From a virus: 32,787 bases of DNA. The position numbers were made by a program, and so were the translations under genes. The notes under the pieces were generated by a model that had not been told where the DNA came from, searched no databases, and was given only the letters and a program-made list of their open reading frames with translations. Position 1 is the first letter of the stretch; each line of letters opens with the position of its first letter. This document shows, one piece after another, positions 5,653 to 32,787 of this stretch. The stretch lies in the IMG/VR virus record IMGVR_UViG_3300047408_000182, positions 1-32,787 of that record; one strand, written 5' to 3'.

Positions 5653-5934
5653 GTGACCGACGAGCAGACCAAACACGCCGAGGCCGTCAAGAAGCGCCTG
5701 GACGAAGAACGGACGGCACGCGAGAAAGCACACGCTGAGCAGCGCGAAGCGCAGGGTGCAATCAAGCCAACGCCGACCCAAGCCGAGAATGATGCGGCCG
5801 CCATGGGGGTCCACATCATCGAGCACGAGCACGATGGCAGCCCCGTGCCAGAACCGCAGACCAAGCAGGCTGAGCCTGCCAAAAAGACCGAGCGCGGCAG
5901 CTACCAGACCAAGGTCGCGACCCCATCGACATGA
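5653..5934 (+). CDS. Small charged coiled-coil protein between capsid and portal genes
   Basis: This 93-residue protein starts at GTG after a near-perfect AGGAGGT site. Residues 1-37 are a run of Glu, Lys, Arg and Ala with heptad-like spacing, probably a coiled coil. The rest is Pro, Glu and Lys rich and looks disordered. Its stop overlaps the portal start in an ATGA, so the two are translationally coupled. No family is recognised. The position suggests a head assembly accessory, but there is no motif to prove it. Confidence 0.7.
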   Translation: MTDEQTKHAEAVKKRLDEERTAREKAHAEQREAQGAIKPTPTQAENDAAAMGVHIIEHEHDGSPVPEPQTKQAEPAKKTERGSYQTKVATPST

Positions 5935-7361
5935 CCGTCCGTGCCTTTCTGACGCGCGTTGCGGGCCAGCTTATCGGCAAGGGCGAAGGCGACTACCGGC
6001 CCGGCCCGTATTATTTACCGGTCACCGGCGGGTGGCTGCCCGCCGGCGTTGCCGACAACTGGTGGCAGCAGGGCTATACGCCGACCAGCCTCGGCACGCA
6101 GTCGGCCATGGTCGAAGCTTGCGTTTCGGCCTATGCGCAGACCGTTGCCATGTGTCCGGGCGATCATTGGCGGCTCAACGACAAAGGCGGCCGCGAGCGC
6201 GTCAAGACTTCGGCGCTCTCGCGCTTGCTTCGCCATCCCAACGACTATCAGTCGATCTCGGACTTTCTGCTGAACGCGACGCGGGCGCTCTATCTCGAAG
6301 GCAACTGCTATGCGCTCGGGCTACGTAATTCGCGATTCGAGATCGACGAACTGCATCTGATGGACCCGCTGATGTCGTATCCGCGGCTCGCTGTCGACGG
6401 CGAGATTTTCTATCAGCTGTTCGGCAACCAGGTGGTCGAAAAGCGGCTCGGCGGCGAGCCGCTGATCGTGCCGCAACGCGACGTCCTGCACATCCGTTTG
6501 CACACAGTGAAGCATCGCTGGCCGGTCCCGCTGGTCGGCGAGAGCCCGATCGTCGCCGCCTACAGCGACATCGGCATCAACAGCGCGATCGCGCGCCAAC
6601 AGATGGGGTACTACCTCAACGAGGCACGGCCATCGGCGGTGCTCTCGACCGACCTGGAGATCAAACGGGAGGAAGTCCAACAGCTGCGCGACCGCTGGAA
6701 CGATCAGACCAAGGGCCTGCATCAGGGCGGCACACCGATCCTCACCCACGGGCTGAAAGTCCAGCCCTGGTCGCAGGGCGGCAAGGATGCTGCCACGGCC
6801 GATATCATGAAACTGTCGAACGAACACATTGCGCTCGCGTTCCGCATCCCGCTGCAGATCCTCGGTATCGGCGGCACCCCGTACAGTTCGACCGAATTGC
6901 TGATGCAGAGCTGGGTCGCAAGCGGATTGGGATTTGCGCTCAATCATATCGAGGAAGCGTTCGGCCTGCTATTCGGCCTCAAAGGCCAGCCCGACGAGTA
7001 TGTCGAATTCGACACCGCGGCGCTGTTGCGCTCGGCGATGAAGGACCGCATCGAGAGCCTGGCGCAAGGTGTGCAAGGCGGCATCTTCGCCCCGAACGAA
7101 GCGCGTGCGCTCGAAGGCTACGAGGCAGTTCCGTTCGGCGACGAGCCGCGCGTCCAGCAGCAGGTCGTGCCGCTCAGCCAGGTCGGGAAGACCCCTCCCG
7201 CACCTGCGCCGGCCGCACCACCCGCGCCACCACCCGCGCCGGACGATCAGAAGTTGCCTCCCGCGCCGCCGAAAAAGGGCAATCGCGATGACATTGCACG
7301 AGAGGTCCGAAACGTCCTTGCCGCCGCCGATCGATTCGGACGCCGCCGACTGTCTGCTTGA
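5931..7361 (+). CDS. Portal protein (HK97 family)
   Basis: The 476-residue product is the dodecameric ring through which DNA enters and leaves the head. Residues 1-400 follow the HK97-type portal pattern: an N-terminal segment with a conserved run of Ala, Tyr and Thr around VSAYAQTVA, the RLLRHPND motif near residue 100, the LEGNCYA strand, and the helical stem and crown region including [12 protein letters not shown] and the [10 protein letters not shown] stretch. The last 70 residues are rich in Pro and Ala and then basic, probably a flexible tail inside the head. The gene comes after the capsid gene rather than before it, which is the reverse of the HK97 order. Confidence 0.92.
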
Positions 7362-8283
7362 GGCCTGGCGCGAGGCGCTCGGCGCGGTGCTCGATACCGA
7401 GCGCCAGCAGTGGCAGCGCGAGCGGTTGCTGATCGAGGCGCAGGCGCAGGCGACGATCGCCGAGGTACGGGCCGGTGTCGCCGAGAAGCTCGCGGCATTC
7501 GAGCGCCAGGTCGCCGACAGGCTGGCGACGGTGCGCGACGGCGAACCGGGGCCGGCTGGCCCGCCCGGCGAATGCGGCGCCATTGGGCCACAGGGGCCCG
7601 CTGGTCTGCCCGGCGAAGCCGGGGCGCCTGGGGCCGCGGGCGAGCCCGGGGCGCAAGGAGCGGCTGGCGCAGCCGGGGCTGACGGCCTTCCAGGCGCGAC
7701 CGGCGAGCGCGGCCTGCCTGGACCGGCCGGCGAGCCGGGACCGGCTGGGCCGCAGGGCGTTTCCGGCGTGCTCTCGCTGGCGCGCGAGTGGGTGTCGGAT
7801 ACCGTCCATTATGCCGGCACCGTGGTGATCCATGCCGGCGGCACCTTCCAAGCCGCCCGCGATACCGGGCAGGCGCCGGGGCACACTGATTGGGTCTGCC
7901 TAGCGCGGCCCGGCCACGACGCGGCGATGCCGCAAGTGCGCGGCACCTTTAGCGAGGTCGGGACCTATGTGGCGCTCGACATCGTCGCGCTCGGCGGTTC
8001 GAGCTTCATCGCCCGGCGCGATGGGCCTGGCCCCTGCCCGGGCGATGGCTGGCAATTGATCGCCTCGGCCGGCAAGCCGGGCATCAAAGGTTCCCCAGGC
8101 GAGCGCGGCGAGCGTGGTGAAGCAGGCGCGCGCGGCCTGCCTGGCGTCTCGGCGCCGGTCATCATCGGCTGGACCGTCGATAGTGCCGCCTACACCGCCA
8201 GGCCGATCCTGTCCGATAAGAGCGAAGCGCCGCCGCTCGAGCTGCGCAGCCTGTTCGAGCAGTTCCACGACGAGGCGCGCTGA
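7288..8283 (+). CDS. Collagen-like protein with carbohydrate-binding-like modules
   Basis: The ATG at 7288 gives 331 residues and overlaps the portal gene by 74 bases. Residues 20-82 are a charged helix, likely a trimerising coiled coil. Residues 85-157 are uninterrupted Gly-X-Y triplets, as in a collagen triple helix. Residues 167-206 and 218-258 are two short repeats with spaced Trp and aromatic residues, such as the [16 protein letters not shown] pattern, which resemble carbohydrate-binding modules of the chitinase CBM5/12 type. A second short collagen stretch covers 262-286. The product is probably an elongated surface fibre or head decoration that touches host or environmental glycans. 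The longer open frame from 7069 is Arg-rich before this ATG and is the shadow of the portal gene. The stop shares a base with the next start (TGATG). Confidence 0.75.
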
Positions 8284-8924: not shown

Positions 8925-9265
8925 TGATCATCCTGGTCGGTGCCGACACGCTGCAGGTCGTGACGTCCGCAGACGGGGCAATCGATGTTCACGCATCGTG
9001 GTTGGACAATACGGCCGGTGCGGTCAGTGTCGGCCGCAGCAACACCGCGATCGCGACAGCCGGGACGGTCGATGTTGTGATCTCGCCCGCCGCCGGTACG
9101 CAGCGCAATGTCCGCACCCTGTACATCCGCAACAAGGATACGGGCTCTAACGATGTCACGGTCTGTCACAACGATGGCGTCATGGTCGTCGAACTGTACA
9201 AGGTGACTTTGCCGCCGGACGGGCAAGCCCAATACAACGATGGCAACGGGTTTGCGTCGCTATGA
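8924..9265 (+). CDS. Stand-alone copy of the fibre N-terminal domain
   Basis: The 113-residue product aligns by eye along its whole length with the first 115 residues of the next gene. Shared elements in the same order include DVHASW plus a following Asp, NTAI, an Ala-Gly-Thr strand, a Pro-Pro/Ala-Ala-Gly turn, RNV, RNKD, and a closing DGQ with a GF. It is therefore a duplicated virion-anchoring or trimerisation domain without the fibre shaft. The ATG at 8924 overlaps the connector stop (TGATG), and its own stop overlaps the fibre start (ATGA). It may cap the same binding sites as the fibre or form a hetero-oligomeric collar. Confidence 0.7.
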   Translation: MIILVGADTLQVVTSADGAIDVHASWLDNTAGAVSVGRSNTAIATAGTVDVVISPAAGTQRNVRTLYIRNKDTGSNDVTVCHNDGVMVVELYKVTLPPDGQAQYNDGNGFASL

Positions 9266-11907
9266 TCCTGCTGACCTCGGGCACGGATGCAATCCGCCTG
9301 CGGACCGGGCAGGCCGCGGCGATCGACGTCCATGCCTCTTGGATCGACAGTCAGGCCGGTGACCTCATCCCGGCACGCGCCAACACCGCCATCACCCTTG
9401 CCGGCACGACGACGATCGTCGGTGCACCGCCCGCCGGTGCGCGGCGCAATGTCAAATACATGTCCGTGCGCAACAAGGATCTTGCGACGACCTGTGACAT
9501 CACGTTCGAGCATGTGAGTACGACCGGCACGATCGAGCTGCACAAGGAGACGGTGCTGCCGGACGGACAGATTCAGTTCAGCGATGCGCACGGCTTCAGC
9601 GGCACCGGCTACGCCACGGATGAGACGTTTGCCGAGGTCGATGGCGCGCCGACGACCGGTCATCTCGCACAGTGGGTGGACGACCACACCATCGAGGGCG
9701 TCGATCCGGCATCGATCGGCGTGGTGGGGCCGCCCGGGCCGCAAGGCGACCCGGGGCCGATAGGGCCGCAAGGCCCACAAGGCGATCCAGGGGCGACTGG
9801 GACAGCCGGCGCACAGGGGCCGCAGGGCGCGCCTGGGCCGCAAGGACCGGCCGGAACGGATGGGGCACAAGGCCCGGCTGGCGCAACGGGGCCGCAAGGG
9901 CCAGCCGGCACCGGCATCAATATGAAGGGGACGGTGCCGACGGTCGGCGATCTGCCGCCGGGAGCAGCGCAAGGCGACGCTTACGTGGTCGAGGCGACCG
10001 GCGACCTGTGGGTCTTCGACGGCACGGTCTACAATAACGTTGGGCCGATCCAGGGGCCGCAAGGGCCAGAGGGACCGCAAGGCGCCACGGGAGCGCAGGG
10101 GCCACAGGGCGTCCCTGGAACTCAGGGCCCGCAAGGCACGACCGGTCTGCAGGGGCCGAAAGGCGACAAGGGCGATACCGGGGCTCAGGGATTGCAGGGT
10201 CCGCAGGGAGCCACAGGACCAGCCGGGGCGGCCTCGACGGTCCCCGGCCCGCAAGGACCGCAAGGCGCGATTGGTCCAACCGGCCCACAGGGCCCCAAAG
10301 GCGACAAGGGCGACAAAGGCGATACGGGTAACACAGGCTTGCAGGGTCCGCAGGGACCACAGGGACCTACAGGTGTTGCCACCGCCAACGCGCCGCTGTC
10401 GCTGACGGGAACGACGCTGAGCATCGATCTTTCCGCCTACGCGCCGTTGGCCTCGCCGGTCTTCACCGGAGATCCCAAGGCCCCGACGCCAGCGGTCACC
10501 GACAACGACACGAGCGTGGCGACCACGGCCTTCGTCCGCACCGCCATCGCCCAAGCCGCCAACCAGACCTATTATTTCGACCCGAGTGCTGCGGCCGACG
10601 TGGCTGGCTACAAGCGCCTGTTGCTGAGCCCAAGTGCGGGCGTGGAATCGACGATTCCGGTCTCTTGCTCGGGCACGAGCGACGTCCTGGTCGGGAGCTT
10701 CGTCACCGACGCGGGCGTGCCCGGTGCCGTGAGTTATCCGGCCGGTTCGGCCTATCGGAGATTGTATGCCAGCGTGTCGAACGGGGCGACGGCAAAATTC
10801 CACCTGCAGATCTACTCGCGATCCTCGGGTGGCGTCGAGACCCTGGCACGCGACGAGTTCAGCCAGAACTTCTCCAATACAAGCCCGGCACTCATCGAGT
10901 GGCTGGCCACGCCGCCTTCTGCTTCGCTGACGGTTACCGACCGGATTGTGGTCAAGATCTATGCACAGCGCGTGGCCGGTGGCGGCGGCACGATCACGGT
11001 GACGTTTTATGCCGAAGGCTCGGTCAACGCCTCGCAGGTGCAGACGACGATCCCGATGGGTGGCAATGCCAGCCTGTCGGCAACGCCGCCCCTGGCGATG
11101 TCGGGCGGAACCATTTCGCTGAGCATCGACAGCACGCTGCGGCTCAACGGCTCCAACCTCGGGATTGCCAATGACGTGGCCCTCCCAGGTGCCCCGACCG
11201 CGGCGTCGTTGACGCTGAGCGGTTCCCTGACCTTGAGCGGGGGCATTTATACCGGCAGCAAGGCGTTCTTGCAGCACGACGCCAACTACAACTACCTGGC
11301 CGGGCCGGATGGGATAACGCGGCTGGCGCTTGGCACCTCGGCGATCGGCCTCAATACGCATTACCAGACAAAGCACGAATTCCGCGACAACAGCAGCACT
11401 TTGCAATGCACGATCGACAACACCGGGGTGGCGGCTCCCATCCTGAAGGCCGGAGCGAGCCCGTTGGCGCCAGCCGGTTGCGCTGTGAACATCGGCTACA
11501 CGGGCAACAACGGGGCTCAGTTCGGCATCGCGGCGCGGCCATCGGTCGACAGCGCATATCCGTTTGTTTTTTATAATGCAGCAGGCACCCAGTGCGGCAC
11601 CATTTACACAACCGCCACCACCACCGCTTACAACACGTCGTCCGACGAGCGGTTGAAGACGGACTTTCAATCATTCGATGCCGGGCCGGCTCTCGATGCA
11701 ATGCAGGTCTATAATTTTGCGTGGCGGTCCACCGGAGCACGCGCGCATGGCGTGGTGGCGCAGCAGGCGATCACCGTTTTCCCGGAGGCCGTAACGCACG
11801 ATCCGACGCTCGACATGTGGGCTGTCGACTACAGCAAGTTCGTGCCGTTGCTGCTTCAGGAAATCAAAGCGCTGCGTGCCCGTGTTGCGGCGTTAGAGGG
11901 AGCATAG
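9262..11907 (+). CDS. Large collagen-like fibre with C-terminal S74 chaperone domain
   Basis: This 881-residue protein starts with the domain shared with the previous gene (1-115). Two Gly-X-Y collagen shafts, about residues 153-218 and 265-374, flank a small module ending in DLWVFDG. Residues 375-780 are beta-rich, low-complexity fibre sequence. The end (about 787-881) is a peptidase S74 intramolecular chaperone: Ser794-Asp795 in SSDERLK, a GVVAQQ segment, and a C-terminal coiled coil ([14 protein letters not shown]). In this family the chaperone drives trimer folding and then cleaves itself off next to that serine, so the mature fibre would end near residue 793. Such fibres usually bind the host. 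It is unusual to find it between the connector and neck genes. Confidence 0.87.
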
Positions 11908-11916
11908 GAGACAACG

Positions 11917-12210
11917 ATGGCTCTGACGTATGAAGAGACCTATGCGCTGACCAAGGACACAGCATTCCGCGGCCGGGTCAACGTGAGCTGCTGCCATTAT
12001 GCGGCCTACATCACGGACGAGCCCGCTACGACGCCTGCGCACTCCACACGGTACAAGTGGGCACAGAACACGCTGCTATCGCCCGAAATGGCAGTCAATC
12101 AGGTTATCTCGACCGTGGTGAACGACGATGCGGTGCAGGCTGATGGCGCTGCCATCACGGACCAGGCATTGCAGACCGCGGTCGAGACTGCGGTGCAGAA
12201 GCTGATCTGA
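11917..12210 (+). CDS. Hypothetical phage structural protein, neck region
   Basis: The 97-residue product has an initial helix (TYEETYALTKDTAFRGRV) and a central YKWAQNTLLSPEM segment. This pattern resembles a small family seen beside head-tail joining genes in proteobacterial phages, whose function is unknown. GGAG lies about eight bases before the ATG. The next gene begins two bases after its stop. Its place just before the probable head-closure gene suggests a neck or tail-completion role, by position only. Confidence 0.65.
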   Translation: MALTYEETYALTKDTAFRGRVNVSCCHYAAYITDEPATTPAHSTRYKWAQNTLLSPEMAVNQVISTVVNDDAVQADGAAITDQALQTAVETAVQKLI

Positions 12211-12212
12211 CG

Positions 12213-13665: not shown

Positions 13666-14136
13666 ATGGCTGACTTGTTGGATATTGCGCCATCGACGGC
13701 CTGCGAGACCGTCTGGATCGACGGACAGCGGTTCAGCGTGCGTGGTGTCTCGCTCGACGCGGTTGCATCGCTCGTGGCCAAGTTTCCGGAATTGCGGTCG
13801 TTGGTCAACGGCGGGTTGGGTGACGATCTCGTTCCGCGGCTCATTCAATGCAGCGGACGAGCGGTTGGATCAGTCATCGCAGCGGGGTGCGGGCATCTCG
13901 GGGATGAGGCTTTCGAGCGGTGGGCAGCCCAGCGCGTGCTCGGGCATCAAGTTAAATTTCTGAAGGCCATTGTTGGGCTGACATTCCCAAACGGGATTGG
14001 CTCGTTCGCCGAGGATCTGACGGCCCTCATCGGCGGAACGGGCGAAAGGGCAAAGCCCATCAAGATGCGCTCGAAGAGGTCGCCGTCGCCATCACCAGAC
14101 TCATCCGGCACGGCTTTGCGCCAGACTTTGCAATGA
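13666..14136 (+). CDS. Tail assembly chaperone, short (zero-frame) form
   Basis: This 156-residue protein has the small globular N-terminal domain (about residues 1-125) seen in lambda gpG-type tail chaperones, which coat the tape measure during assembly. After residue 130 the frame becomes rich in Ser, Pro and Arg and ends abruptly. The minus-one frame, by contrast, continues as a long amphipathic helix. This contrast is the usual sign of a programmed minus-one frameshift that makes a longer GT-type protein. The stop overlaps an ATG (ATGA) of the downstream frame. An AGGAGG-type site precedes the start. Confidence 0.72.
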   Translation: MADLLDIAPSTACETVWIDGQRFSVRGVSLDAVASLVAKFPELRSLVNGGLGDDLVPRLIQCSGRAVGSVIAAGCGHLGDEAFERWAAQRVLGHQVKFLKAIVGLTFPNGIGSFAEDLTALIGGTGERAKPIKMRSKRSPSPSPDSSGTALRQTLQ

Positions 14137-14285
14137 GCCTCACGCCGCGGCAGCTCTTTGCCTATCTTGAGTTTGGCAAAAAGCTCAACCGCAGAGAGCG
14201 GGCGGACGACTTGTTCATTGCCGCCGTCGGCGCACAAGGCGACCCGAAGGCGATCGACAAGATGATCAAGGAATGGGGCGATTGA
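14133..14285 (+). CDS. Tail assembly chaperone, second part (frameshift extension)
   Basis: The frame from the ATG at 14133 gives 50 residues beginning MSLTPRQLFAYLEFGKKLNR and rich in helix formers. Upstream of the ATG the same frame stays open back to 13956 and reads as continuous helix (ALEEVAVAITRLIRHG). The natural product is therefore probably the minus-one fusion with the preceding gene, about 206 residues if slippage occurs at the A-AAG at 14052-14055. Independent translation from the overlapping ATGA is also possible. In lambda the T part binds the tape measure or tube protein. Confidence 0.6.
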   Translation: MSLTPRQLFAYLEFGKKLNRRERADDLFIAAVGAQGDPKAIDKMIKEWGD

Positions 14286-14291
14286 TAACGA

Positions 14292-14693
14292 CTACTGCAC
14301 ACTTTCCAAAAAGTTTGTGGCCGACTTTTCGAACGTATGCACGAGGTCCACAATTTTCATGAATTGCGCCTCGTCGTAACTGCTCACAACGACTCCAAGT
14401 TTTATTTTCGGTCGCTCCTCCTGGATCGTCTGGATCAGATTGCGACAATCTGGCATCGGGTGTTGCTCACATTTGGTAATGAGTTGTTTCTGCAACCGAT
14501 CAACTCGTTCCAGCATCTGTACTGCCGCACGAAGACGATGGTCTCGCGCGGGGTCAGGCTTAGTCTCGGCAGGAGTAGATGCGGCCGTGGTGGGAGGTGG
14601 TTGCGCCCCGAACATAAGTGCAAGAAATACCAATCCCCAGAAGGTCAGCAAGATTGTCCCCAGCACCCTCGTCAAAGTCTTCACCACGTTCAT
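14292..14693 (-). CDS. Reversed single-pass membrane protein (moron candidate)
   Basis: This 133-residue protein is encoded against the late operon, between the chaperone and tape measure parts. Residues 11-29 form a membrane helix. A Pro/Thr linker (30-50) and a helical domain (55-130) with Cys75 and Cys83, a possible disulfide, follow. There is no lipobox. GGAG sits eight bases before the ATG on the minus strand. A longer frame exists but lacks a comparable site. The stop lies six bases from the chaperone stop, so the genes converge. A GATAAT -10-like box is at 14753-14758 (minus) without a good -35. The opposite orientation, own ribosome site and membrane anchor fit a lysogenic conversion or superinfection-exclusion gene. 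This function is inferred. Confidence 0.65.
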   Translation of the reverse strand: MNVVKTLTRVLGTILLTFWGLVFLALMFGAQPPPTTAASTPAETKPDPARDHRLRAAVQMLERVDRLQKQLITKCEQHPMPDCRNLIQTIQEERPKIKLGVVVSSYDEAQFMKIVDLVHTFEKSATNFLESVQ

Positions 14694-14831
14694 TCCGATT
14701 TCTCCAGGTAAATGGTGTCCCGTTAGAAATGCCCAGGCCGCGCCAGTATGCAATTATCCGCTTTTTGGACGGGTTGCTGCTTTGCGCCAAATTTTTGATA
14801 TTTCGGGCCACGGGCCCGGGCTGAATAAGCC

Positions 14832-15371
14832 ATGTCGGTCCGTATCCGCCTCCGGGCACAGTCGATAAAGCCTCAGCTGGATGAGACCGTTAAACAATTG
14901 AAGCAGCGTGTTCAGTCGGCGGCGACCTCCTCCACCAAGCAACTCGCCGACACCATTCAACGCGAAGGGCGCGCCGACATCGCCAGCGCCGGCAGGTTCG
15001 GCGGCAAATGGATATCCGGCTTGACCTACGAAATCTTGGACGGAGACAAGGTCAAGACGATTGTCTTCCACCATTCAAACAATCTTTGGAAGGTTTTCCA
15101 GTTCGGGGCGAAAATCCAAGGCAAGCCGCTGCTGTGGATTCCGGTGGACCCAGGGGGGCCGCGCGCGCGCGACTTTCCAGGCCGCCTCTTCCAGGTCAAG
15201 CGGCGCAGGAAACGTGACGTGCCGCTGCTGATGTCGGCTGACGACAAGCAGGTGAAATACATCGGGGTTAAAAAGGTCACCATTCGCAGGAAATTCCATC
15301 TGCTCAAGATCATCCGTGACGAAGCAAAGAAGCAACGCGACCTCTTCAGGGCTGAGATGAAAAATGGCTGA
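14832..15371 (+). CDS. Phage tail-associated protein (DUF6441-like, putative)
   Basis: The 179-residue product has an initial helix, a glycine-rich GRFGGKWISGL stretch near residue 55, and the block GKPLLWIPVDPGGPRARDFPG (about 97-117) followed by basic residues and PLLMSAD. This combination resembles the DUF6441 family of prophage proteins, recalled by pattern and not searched. A tail completion role is possible from position, upstream of the tape measure. No clear Shine-Dalgarno site is seen, perhaps because the reversed gene was inserted just before it. The stop overlaps the tape measure start by eight bases. Confidence 0.6.
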   Translation: MSVRIRLRAQSIKPQLDETVKQLKQRVQSAATSSTKQLADTIQREGRADIASAGRFGGKWISGLTYEILDGDKVKTIVFHHSNNLWKVFQFGAKIQGKPLLWIPVDPGGPRARDFPGRLFQVKRRRKRDVPLLMSADDKQVKYIGVKKVTIRRKFHLLKIIRDEAKKQRDLFRAEMKNG

Positions 15372-17193
15372 CAGCGACCCGATCGTCCAAACGATTAAGA
15401 TTGAAGTCGAGGGTACGGACGAGGCGACTGCCGCTTTCAAGAAAGTGGGCGACAGCGGAGCCCAGTCATTCGACGAATTGCAAAAGGCGGCCACGGATGC
15501 CGGGAAAACTATCAATCAAAGCTCGCAGCAAATTGTCGACTCAAGCAACAAGGTCGGCGAGGGCCTCGACCAGGTCTCGCAGAAGTCCGGCGTTAGCAAT
15601 CGCCAACTGAAAGCCCTCGGCAAGGTCGCCAAGGAGCTCGGCGCCGGTGAGATGGCGGGGCTGGCGATCGGCTTCGCCAAAATAGCCAACGTTCTGGGCC
15701 CGATTGGCGTGGCCGTCTTCGCGGTCGCCGAGGCCTTCAGTTTCATCAAGGGCAAGATGAAGGAGGCGGAGGAGGCCGCGAAGGCCATCACGCAAGAGTT
15801 CGCCAACATCACGAGAATAGCGGCGGAGATGAAGGCGGAGAACGACGCCTCGTTCTGGGGCACGACCGCGGCGGGCATGAAGCAGGCTGCGAACGATGCC
15901 GGCAAGCTCGCCGATCAGCTCAAGCGGATAGCGAGCGGCAGCAAGGAGGCGATCAGTCCGCTGACGACGCAGGACGCGCTGACCAAGGCCTTTGTTAAGA
16001 ATCTGGAGCTGGCCGGCATCGCGGTTAACGATGTCATGGCCGACACCAAGAAGCTCGGCCAGGCATCAAACCAGGCGGCGCTGGCGGCGGCGAAGATTTA
16101 CGAGAAGCTGTCGCCGATCGAGAAGCTGGAGTTCGAGAAAGTCCTGAAGGGCCTCGGCTTCCCCGAGGCCGTCATCAAGAACATCCAGAAGGGATCGGCG
16201 GCACTCAAGGCCCTGCAGGACCAGGCCGCCAAGCCGTTCTTCACGCCGGAGCAGCAGAAGTCGATCGATAATCTGGCAGGGGGATGGGACGCGTTCGTTG
16301 CCGCGTCCAAGCGGGCGTGGGCGATGGTGGCGGGCGACGCCGAGGGCGGCACCCGAGGATTGGTGCAGACGATAGGGGCCTCGCTCGCCACAGGCTTTGC
16401 CGATGCAATGGCCGTTGTCGGACAATTCGAGCGCAACGTCGTTGCCGCCATTTCCCGGATACCCGGTCAGATCAGCGAGTTCTTCTCCAGCCTGCCAGGC
16501 CTGATTGGGCGGGGGATCGATGCGGCCAAGCAACTGATCACGGACTGGGTGACGACGCCGGTCAGCAATGCCTGGGGCTGGATTGCCGAGACGTTCAACA
16601 GCGTCGTGGATACACTCAAGGGCACTGTCGACTCCGCCATACAGTTCATCACCGACTGGGTCACCACGCCGGTCAGTAACGCCTTTCAATGGATCGTCGA
16701 TGCGATCGCTGACGCCATAGCGAAGGCCAAGGCGTTCTTCGGGATCCGCGGCGGTGTTGGCGGTCTCGCTCGCGATGCGGGCATCGGCGACATCGGTAGC
16801 AACGCCAGCGGCGGCCTGATCGGCGGGCGTGGCAGCGGGACGTCGGACAGTAATCTCGCATGGGTTAGCCGCGGCGAGCACATCATGCCGGCCCGGGCCG
16901 TGAGCCAGCCGGGCGTCCTCGCCCTCCTCGAGGCGCTGCGGCATTCCGGCGGCAACCTGCGCGGCGTCCTCGACGGCATGGGGCGCTTTGCCCTCGGTGG
17001 CCTGGTGGCGCCGACGCTCTCGATCCCGGCGTTCGCTGGTGGTGGTGGCATGAACCACGTCACCATCCAGTTTCCTGGGCTGCCAGAGATCACAGGCCTG
17101 CGCGCCTCCTCCGGCGTGGTCGACGAACTGCGCAAGGCCGCGGCAATGGCGCAGGTGCGCTCAGGCGGCCGCAAGCCGAGCCGGTATTCCTGA
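15364..17193 (+). CDS. Tail tape measure protein
   Basis: This 609-residue protein has long helical regions, an N-terminal coiled coil (about 10-95), a hydrophobic helix (about 98-130) and a second coiled region (about 135-200). Its C-terminal part is rich in Gly, Ala and Ser. A 12-residue element ITDWVTTPVSNA occurs twice (392-403 and 429-440), so a 37-residue unit is repeated. Near the end the block LAWVSRGEHIMPARAV (about 498-513) is typical of tape measure C-termini. The protein sets tail length and may pass through the membrane during DNA entry. It is shorter than lambda gpH, which suggests a shorter tail. Confidence 0.88.
   Translation: MADSDPIVQTIKIEVEGTDEATAAFKKVGDSGAQSFDELQKAATDAGKTINQSSQQIVDSSNKVGEGLDQVSQKSGVSNRQLKALGKVAKELGAGEMAGLAIGFAKIANVLGPIGVAVFAVAEAFSFIKGKMKEAEEAAKAITQEFANITRIAAEMKAENDASFWGTTAAGMKQAANDAGKLADQLKRIASGSKEAISPLTTQDALTKAFVKNLELAGIAVNDVMADTKKLGQASNQAALAAAKIYEKLSPIEKLEFEKVLKGLGFPEAVIKNIQKGSAALKALQDQAAKPFFTPEQQKSIDNLAGGWDAFVAASKRAWAMVAGDAEGGTRGLVQTIGASLATGFADAMAVVGQFERNVVAAISRIPGQISEFFSSLPGLIGRGIDAAKQLITDWVTTPVSNAWGWIAETFNSVVDTLKGTVDSAIQFITDWVTTPVSNAFQWIVDAIADAIAKAKAFFGIRGGVGGLARDAGIGDIGSNASGGLIGGRGSGTSDSNLAWVSRGEHIMPARAVSQPGVLALLEALRHSGGNLRGVLDGMGRFALGGLVAPTLSIPAFAGGGGMNHVTIQFPGLPEITGLRASSGVVDELRKAAAMAQVRSGGRKPSRYS
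16537..16683 (+). repeat. Direct repeat inside the tape measure gene
   Basis: Two 36-base copies, 16537-16572 and 16648-16683, start 111 bases apart. They encode identical 12-residue peptides but differ at several third codon positions. The drift at synonymous sites shows an old duplication held by selection on the protein. Unit changes of this kind alter tape length in steps. Confidence 0.75.
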
Positions 17194-32078: not shown

Positions 32079-32787
32079 TCAATCCTTGGCTTTAACAATT
32101 GATAAAGGTGTTTGGTGGGACTTTTCCGTGGGACCTTTGCTGCGGCGCTGCATTGCTTCGATGGCCGCCGCCACCTCGCTGTCCGCCACGTGCGCGTAGC
32201 GCATCGTGGTCTCGATGCGCGCATGATTGAGCGCCTTTGAGACTAGCTTGAGGTTGCCAGTCTCGCGCAACAACTTGGTCCCAAAATCATGCCGGTAGTC
32301 GTGTAGCCGGAAGCCTTCCACGCCAGCCGCTTTGCGCAGCCGACGCCAGCGCGTCTTGACCCCCTCGACGGTGAGCGGATAGCGCCGGCCCGCGACCGTG
32401 GCTGGTTGAATGACCTCGTCGCCGCGGCGGCGTTCCTTTTGCGTGCGCTCGGCCACGTAGGTGAACACGAAAACCGAGTCGTGGCCTTGCAGCGGGAATA
32501 GAATATCGCGCACAGTCGTTGTGATCGGGATCACGATCCGCTTGTCGCCTTTGCCCGGCTTGACAATTCGCTCGCCGGCAAAGTCCACCTCCGACCACTT
32601 CAATGTCAGTGCTTCGTTGCGACGCACGCCAGCGGCTGCCAAGAATGTAAAGAATGGTGCATAATCGTCGCGCATGACTGCATCGAGCCGCATCGCCTCG
32701 TCGTCGCGCAGCTCGCGCACGCGTTCCTGCGGCTCCTTCAGCATATGATATCGCCAGATCGGCTCAACATCAAACCGCGCCCGCAAC
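32079..32787 (-). CDS. int: Tyrosine integrase, N-terminus beyond the window (partial)
   Basis: About 235 residues of the C-terminal catalytic domain are visible. The conserved set is complete: Arg in GVRRNEALTLKW, Lys in the GKGDKRIVIPI beta hairpin, the His-x-x-Arg in LHDYRHDFG, a further His in LNHARIETT, and the Tyr nucleophile in MRYAHV. This domain cuts and rejoins DNA at att sites. The N-terminal core-binding and arm-binding domains lie past 32787. The stop is 30 bases from the tRNA-like core, and one arm-type repeat copy lies inside the last codons. The gene is transcribed toward the core. Confidence 0.88.
   Translation of the reverse strand, partial: LRARFDVEPIWRYHMLKEPQERVRELRDDEAMRLDAVMRDDYAPFFTFLAAAGVRRNEALTLKWSEVDFAGERIVKPGKGDKRIVIPITTTVRDILFPLQGHDSVFVFTYVAERTQKERRRGDEVIQPATVAGRRYPLTVEGVKTRWRRLRKAAGVEGFRLHDYRHDFGTKLLRETGNLKLVSKALNHARIETTMRYAHVADSEVAAAIEAMQRRSKGPTEKSHQTPLSIVKAKD
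32112..32138 (+). repeat. Right-hand copies of the arm-type repeat
   Basis: TTGGTGGGACTTTT (32112-32125) is identical to the left-hand copies. CGTGGGACCTTT (32127-32138) is a second, imperfect copy. They lie within the end of the integrase gene, on the other side of the tRNA core from 31871-31906. Confidence 0.55.

Follow-up and report, generated by a model that had tools for sequence, protein, structure and literature searches.

A reversed gene for a membrane-anchored orphan protein lies in a phage insertion hotspot near the tape measure gene: a candidate superinfection exclusion moron

A single gene in a temperate phage, reading against the late tail operon, encodes a small membrane-anchored protein and lies on a cleanly inserted cassette, at a junction which in related phages is either empty or filled by other reversed genes for exported proteins. 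The stretch analysed (the window) comprises the 32,787 nt of IMG/VR record IMGVR_UViG_3300047408_000182. Our favoured reading, at moderate confidence, is that the gene is a reversed moron carried as an exchangeable cassette in a hotspot between the tail chaperone and a DUF6441-like gene, and that it would act in superinfection exclusion at genome entry.

The open reading frame (14292–14693, minus strand), read directly from the sequence, extends over 133 codons from an ATG start to a TAG stop and is preceded by a Shine–Dalgarno sequence GGAGA (14701–14705, minus) 7 nt before the ATG, in agreement with an earlier note on this DNA that had described a reversed gene with its own ribosome site and a membrane helix. 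That helix is the only one of its kind in the protein, hydrophobic and N-terminal (about residues 10–28), with K5 and R9 ahead of the helix and residues 10–42 all uncharged; a proline-rich Pro/Thr/Ala linker follows the uncharged stretch and leads to a helical domain containing two cysteines, Cys75 and Cys83. The AlphaFold2 model from the single sequence (mean pLDDT 75) presents a helix at residues 3–28, a low-confidence linker and a C-terminal domain of three helices (48–77, 81–106 and 108–132), with the cysteines on either side of the domain's first turn. The two-cysteine domain claimed by the earlier note is thus present, while its periplasmic side is predicted by the positive-inside rule, according to which the helical domain should face the periplasm. 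In that location a Cys75–Cys83 disulfide could form in the modelled domain, and the product is probably anchored in the inner membrane with a helical, probably disulfide-bonded domain facing the periplasm.

The product belongs to no recognized family, as had been claimed: PHROGs, Pfam, NCBIfam and PADLOC yielded no family, IMG/VR no homologue, a tblastn search of 50,697 phage records (HK97 included) no match, and the PDB no homologue by sequence and no match with E < 0.4 to the single-sequence model. Among 397 genomes from the order of genome G001 only short matches of low identity were obtained (best E 6e-4), many of them in the proline-rich linker or with internal stops. When the insert was subjected to 2000 dinucleotide shuffles, an ATG-initiated frame of at least 133 codons arose on the same strand in 6 of them, and one of that length with any start on either strand in 92, so that the length by itself is weak to modest evidence. 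The codon score of the frame is the best of the six (0.015 versus −0.13 to −0.59) and lies below that of the phage's own genes (0.10–0.37), as would be expected of a foreign gene.

The gene is bordered on the left by the tail assembly chaperone, or pre-tape-measure protein (13666–14136, plus; Pfam Pre_tape_measure), and by a second tail-chaperone ORF (14133–14286, plus) that overlaps the first by ATGA and is conserved in the relatives compared. The stop of this second ORF lies 5 nt from that of the reversed gene, the two meeting tail to tail. To the right follow a DUF6441-like gene (14832–15371, plus; 25.5 bits against a cut-off of 27) and the tape measure protein (15364–17193, plus), so that the placement of the gene between chaperone and tape measure stands for the junction but not for direct adjacency, the DUF6441-like gene intervening. 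A tyrosine integrase (32079–32786, minus) runs to the right end of the contig and indicates that the phage is temperate. Comparison with relatives lacking the gene, which the earlier note had proposed, delimits the cassette: insert-free relatives (L077, L080, L082, L083, L084 and L087) match the window in DNA alignment up to 14277–14280 and again from 14828, with few bases between in the relative. The left edge varies from 14278 to 14281 with the relative aligned, and the whole insert may be placed at 14281–14827; the alignment break shows that about 550 bp have been cleanly inserted. The chaperone of the window is 77% identical to that of the cassette-bearing L002, whereas its DUF6441-like gene has 68–81% identity to those of cassette-free phages and about 30% to that of L002, a mismatch which shows that a cassette-bearing left side has been joined to a cassette-free right side in the window.

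Other features of this genome may be recorded alongside. No clear ribosome site precedes the DUF6441-like gene within 14810–14832. In relatives without the insert this gene either overlaps the second chaperone ORF at its end or begins directly next to it; the insert therefore disrupts a probable translational coupling. A segment of about 3.3 kb (8925–12211), which holds an 881-codon collagen-like tail-fibre ORF (9262–11907), is missing between adjoining head–tail genes of L004, L077, L087 and the like. A further ORF with collagen-like tail-fibre matches (7069–8283) overlaps the end of the portal gene, and its true start probably lies further downstream. The hosts of the lineage are probably Hyphomicrobiales: the sole match in a search of species genomes was a metagenome-assembled genome of the Beijerinckiaceae, a family in that order (L117), and the contig names of some distant relatives, L185 included, have the form used for isolate genomes.

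The flanking chaperone and DUF6441-like proteins were used as queries to collect relatives whose junctions could be compared. After deduplication this yielded 70 junctions from related phages, most of which are temperate: 41 are empty (gap −23 to +2 bp), another 28 hold an insert of 290–640 bp and one has a short, ambiguous gap of 154 bp. In every one of the 28 inserts the minus strand has an ORF whose product contains a membrane helix or a signal peptide, called as a 15-residue stretch of mean hydropathy ≥ 1.9 (a simple threshold, although the sequences are clear by reading), while a plus-strand equivalent occurs in only two. The G+C content of the insert is lower than that of its flanks in 27 of 28 (P = 1.5e-8), the window itself having 51.8% against 59.2%. 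Insertion between adjacent genes and odd base composition are hallmarks of morons (PMC4378225); here a single accessory coding unit separates genes that adjoin in relatives, as empty and filled junctions reveal, and its base composition departs from that of its neighbours. The slot is a hotspot at which reversed morons encoding envelope proteins collect. Reversed exported genes also occupy it in the distant relatives L184 and L185 (chaperone identity 37–45%), where the tandem element described below is not clearly seen. An integrase was found in 10 of 11 cassette-bearing contigs tested and also in 11 of 14 insert-free relatives tested, and a correlation of the cassette with temperate lifestyle was set aside as uninformative, integrases being common in both.

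The exported products fall into at least 14 sequence types that are unrelated save for shared N-terminal anchors, as seen in an all-against-all BLASTP comparison covering the cassettes other than L128, L178, L184 and L185. One type (L002, L052) joins the anchor to a domain with the pattern DFTIxNDxxxAVKDITIxC, another (L004, L007, L013, L029, L041) joins an anchor or lipobox to a C-terminal GHRCGGRAASERKGG, and a third (L042) joins the anchor to a helical domain with two cysteines. Signal peptides are found in L005, L012, L020, L023 and L059, where they precede an HNH-like DHIIPLRNGGTNDQKNLQW (for example L012:5683–5943, minus), and in other proteins from L021, L038/L097, L128, L178 and L184; one-, two- and multi-helix proteins come from L003/L024, L013, L043, L067, L074, L079 and L185. 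The HNH domain of L012 matches PF01844 with E 6e-4 and 20.3 bits, just under the cut-off of 21.4, and the structure model of this cassette is poor (pLDDT 51); from their motifs, the HNH-like signal-peptide cassettes may encode a secreted nuclease within a prophage. In L029 a second, non-exported ORF (5915–6127, minus) lies upstream of the exported one, and some cassettes therefore carry two genes.

Sister cassettes show that these frames are maintained. In the minus frame dN and dS are 0.23 and 1.18 for L002/L052, 0.29 and 1.05 for L007/L013, 0.06 and 0.29 for L003/L024, and 0.37 and 0.88 for L038/L097, dN amounting in diverged pairs to about 0.2–0.5 of dS, which indicates purifying selection and hence that the minus ORFs of these sister cassettes are real proteins. 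As regards conservation of the reading frame, on which the earlier note had made its proposal depend, no homologue of the window's exact protein was found, and the conservation is that of the sister cassettes. One further pair, L041 (5618–5878, minus) and L042 (5297–5674, minus), has flanks that are 97.5–99% identical over most of their length and identical DNA for the 5′ element and anchor, but their C-terminal domains are unrelated. This pair is a cassette domain exchange caught in progress.

At the 5′ end of nearly all inserts of the main clade lies a tandem TGGCRCGA element, two direct repeats 21 bp apart with the consensus TGGCaC.AA.aA.CAA.tg..TGGCaCgaa....CAAgaC. In the window the tandem form is present once only (14774–14810, minus), as TGGCCCGAAATATCAA at 14795–14810 and TGGCGCAAAGCAGCAA at 14774–14789, and the element region of L002 aligns to 14768–14830 at 82.8%. 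A search of 2.9 million viral contigs for exact tandem forms matched only 25 stretches, on contigs of this phage group. The element's role may be regulatory, as a promoter or operator whose two sites would share one helical face, or it may do no more than supply the homology through which cassettes recombine. A sigma-54 reading was discarded on visual inspection, because neither the spacing nor the GC at −12 fits. Around the reversed gene no sigma-70 consensus promoter was found, and a simple consensus scan of 14200–14900, which is blind to factor-dependent termination, found no terminator-like hairpin; this counts against the favoured reading, since classical morons usually have both their own promoter and their own terminator (PMC4378225).

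We propose that the gene, lying on the strand opposite to the late operon, is probably transcribed when the late genes are shut off in the lysogen, that the tandem TGGCRCGA repeats would serve as its own control element for this, and that the envelope protein would then hinder genome entry by related siphophages, with the incoming tape measure protein as a plausible point of attack. Expression from the prophage is proposed on account of the reversed orientation, the temperate phage, the exported product and the foreign composition. The fixed orientation would be explained if opposing late transcription silenced the cassette, which is a conjecture. The nearest precedent is HK97 gp15, which, according to PMC10883804 (citing Cumby et al., 2012; record NC_002167), mediates superinfection exclusion. 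In the same paper gp15, Ltp and Sie2009 are described as blocking DNA injection, and altered tail tube or tape measure genes as escaping gp15; for gp15 and Ltp the phages blocked are long-tailed, and such alterations overcome both proteins (PMC10883804, PMC3952083). Like the window gene, gp15 is an accessory gene in the chaperone/tape-measure junction of a temperate siphophage, after the frameshifted tail-assembly gene and before the tape measure gene, and is an annotated moron whose product is a small predicted inner-membrane protein. The window gene takes a gp15-like position but has the DUF6441-like gene added ahead of the tape measure; moreover gp15 reads forward with a putative terminator annotated after it, whereas the window gene is reversed with the tandem element ahead, and gp15 is annotated with 62 codons, about half the length. 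The tblastn search of the phage records that include HK97 gave no match pointing to homology between the two. In the same phage gp23, a ‘reverse moron’, is likewise a lone minus-strand gene set into a temperate phage's late tail operon, but it lies between tail genes I and J, overlaps gp22 and, unlike the window slot, is not known to mark a hotspot for exported proteins.

Ltp of TP-J34 and Sie2009 resemble the proposed role in being prophage-encoded, membrane-located proteins that stop DNA injection; Ltp is a lipoprotein expressed in lysogeny that has the tape measure as its target (PMC3952083, PMC10883804), although the ltp gene is part of the lysogeny module in a Gram-positive phage (PMC3952083), whereas the window gene sits in the tail operon. 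The tape measure protein of incoming siphophages is also involved with Tab of JBD26, a prophage moron (PMC10884400), and with SNIPE, a membrane nuclease that cuts entering DNA (PMC13190303) and offers a parallel for the exported HNH-like cassettes. Tab, however, has its effect during tail assembly, and its gene lies between the terminase genes; the GIY-YIG nuclease of SNIPE faces the cytoplasm, and SNIPE is not a cassette of this slot. Morons, reverse morons and the gp15-like slot are thus already known; the papers searched gave no account of a slot that time and again receives reversed genes for unrelated exported proteins, which share a 5′ element and exchange effector domains, a weak negative because most subscription papers fell outside the search.

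The parallels with gp15 and Ltp and the links to the tape measure lead us to rank exclusion of related siphophages first and another benefit to the lysogen next. Exported morons can serve host fitness instead of exclusion, and a reversed moron aiding the lysogen through envelope stress, nutrient or toxin handling or a surface change is a possible though less probable reading: any lysogenic-conversion gene would share the cassette anatomy, and the exported types are very diverse with no defence family recognized by PADLOC, yet the repeated choice of a tape-measure-side slot parallels gp15, and an exported HNH-like protein is hard to reconcile with host fitness. Cassette types did not follow tape measure types, L041 and L042 having the same tape measure and different cassettes, and this independence is a further point against exclusion. 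The earlier note's likening of the gene to an exclusion or conversion factor holds for its outward features, an acquired, AT-rich, reversed envelope-protein gene in a temperate phage whose relatives fill the slot likewise, while exclusion itself would be its function only on the reading that we prefer.

We regard it as improbable that the cassettes act in the lytic cycle, early or late, for instance as lysis helpers or modulators of the dying cell's envelope. Small proteins of one or two helices with holin- or spanin-like sizes do occur (L003/L024, L043), but lysis genes are co-transcribed late, whereas the cassettes point against the late operon and are missing from 41 of 70 relatives. Products that have a cleavable signal peptide and no membrane helix besides are not holins; several cassettes are of this kind, and holin or spanin was therefore rejected as a general explanation. 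Very unlikely is an insert that works at the level of DNA or through antisense RNA, for instance by damping chaperone or tape measure expression, with an incidental ORF; convergence with the chaperone gene and the conserved non-coding tandem element would suit it, but purifying selection on the minus frame of sister inserts and 28 of 28 exported ORFs on one strand oppose it. It is equally unlikely that the ORF arose by chance in a cassette that has decayed, for although the window's own frame is an orphan with a low codon score and an either-strand chance of 92 in 2000, it combines an ATG, a good ribosome site, a membrane helix, a linker and a predicted three-helix domain with a 3′ end abutting the chaperone stop and a 5′ element placed as in sister cassettes.

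On the exclusion reading, and more tentatively, this lineage might keep a dedicated, regulated slot beside the tape measure for polymorphic periplasmic exclusion effectors, with a constant element, an in part constant anchor and swapped domains of helical, HNH-like nuclease, lipoprotein and other kinds, all reversed so that late transcription would silence them in the lytic cycle and spare the phage itself. At least 14 exported proteins, which temperate phages infecting soil bacteria have brought beside the tape measure, can be catalogued from this slot. If these are exclusion factors, it would be a focused source of new anti-phage envelope proteins, a putative secreted nuclease included, and a test of why such genes cluster beside the tape measure, while the natural pair L041 and L042, which differ only in the effector domain, would make specificity directly testable.
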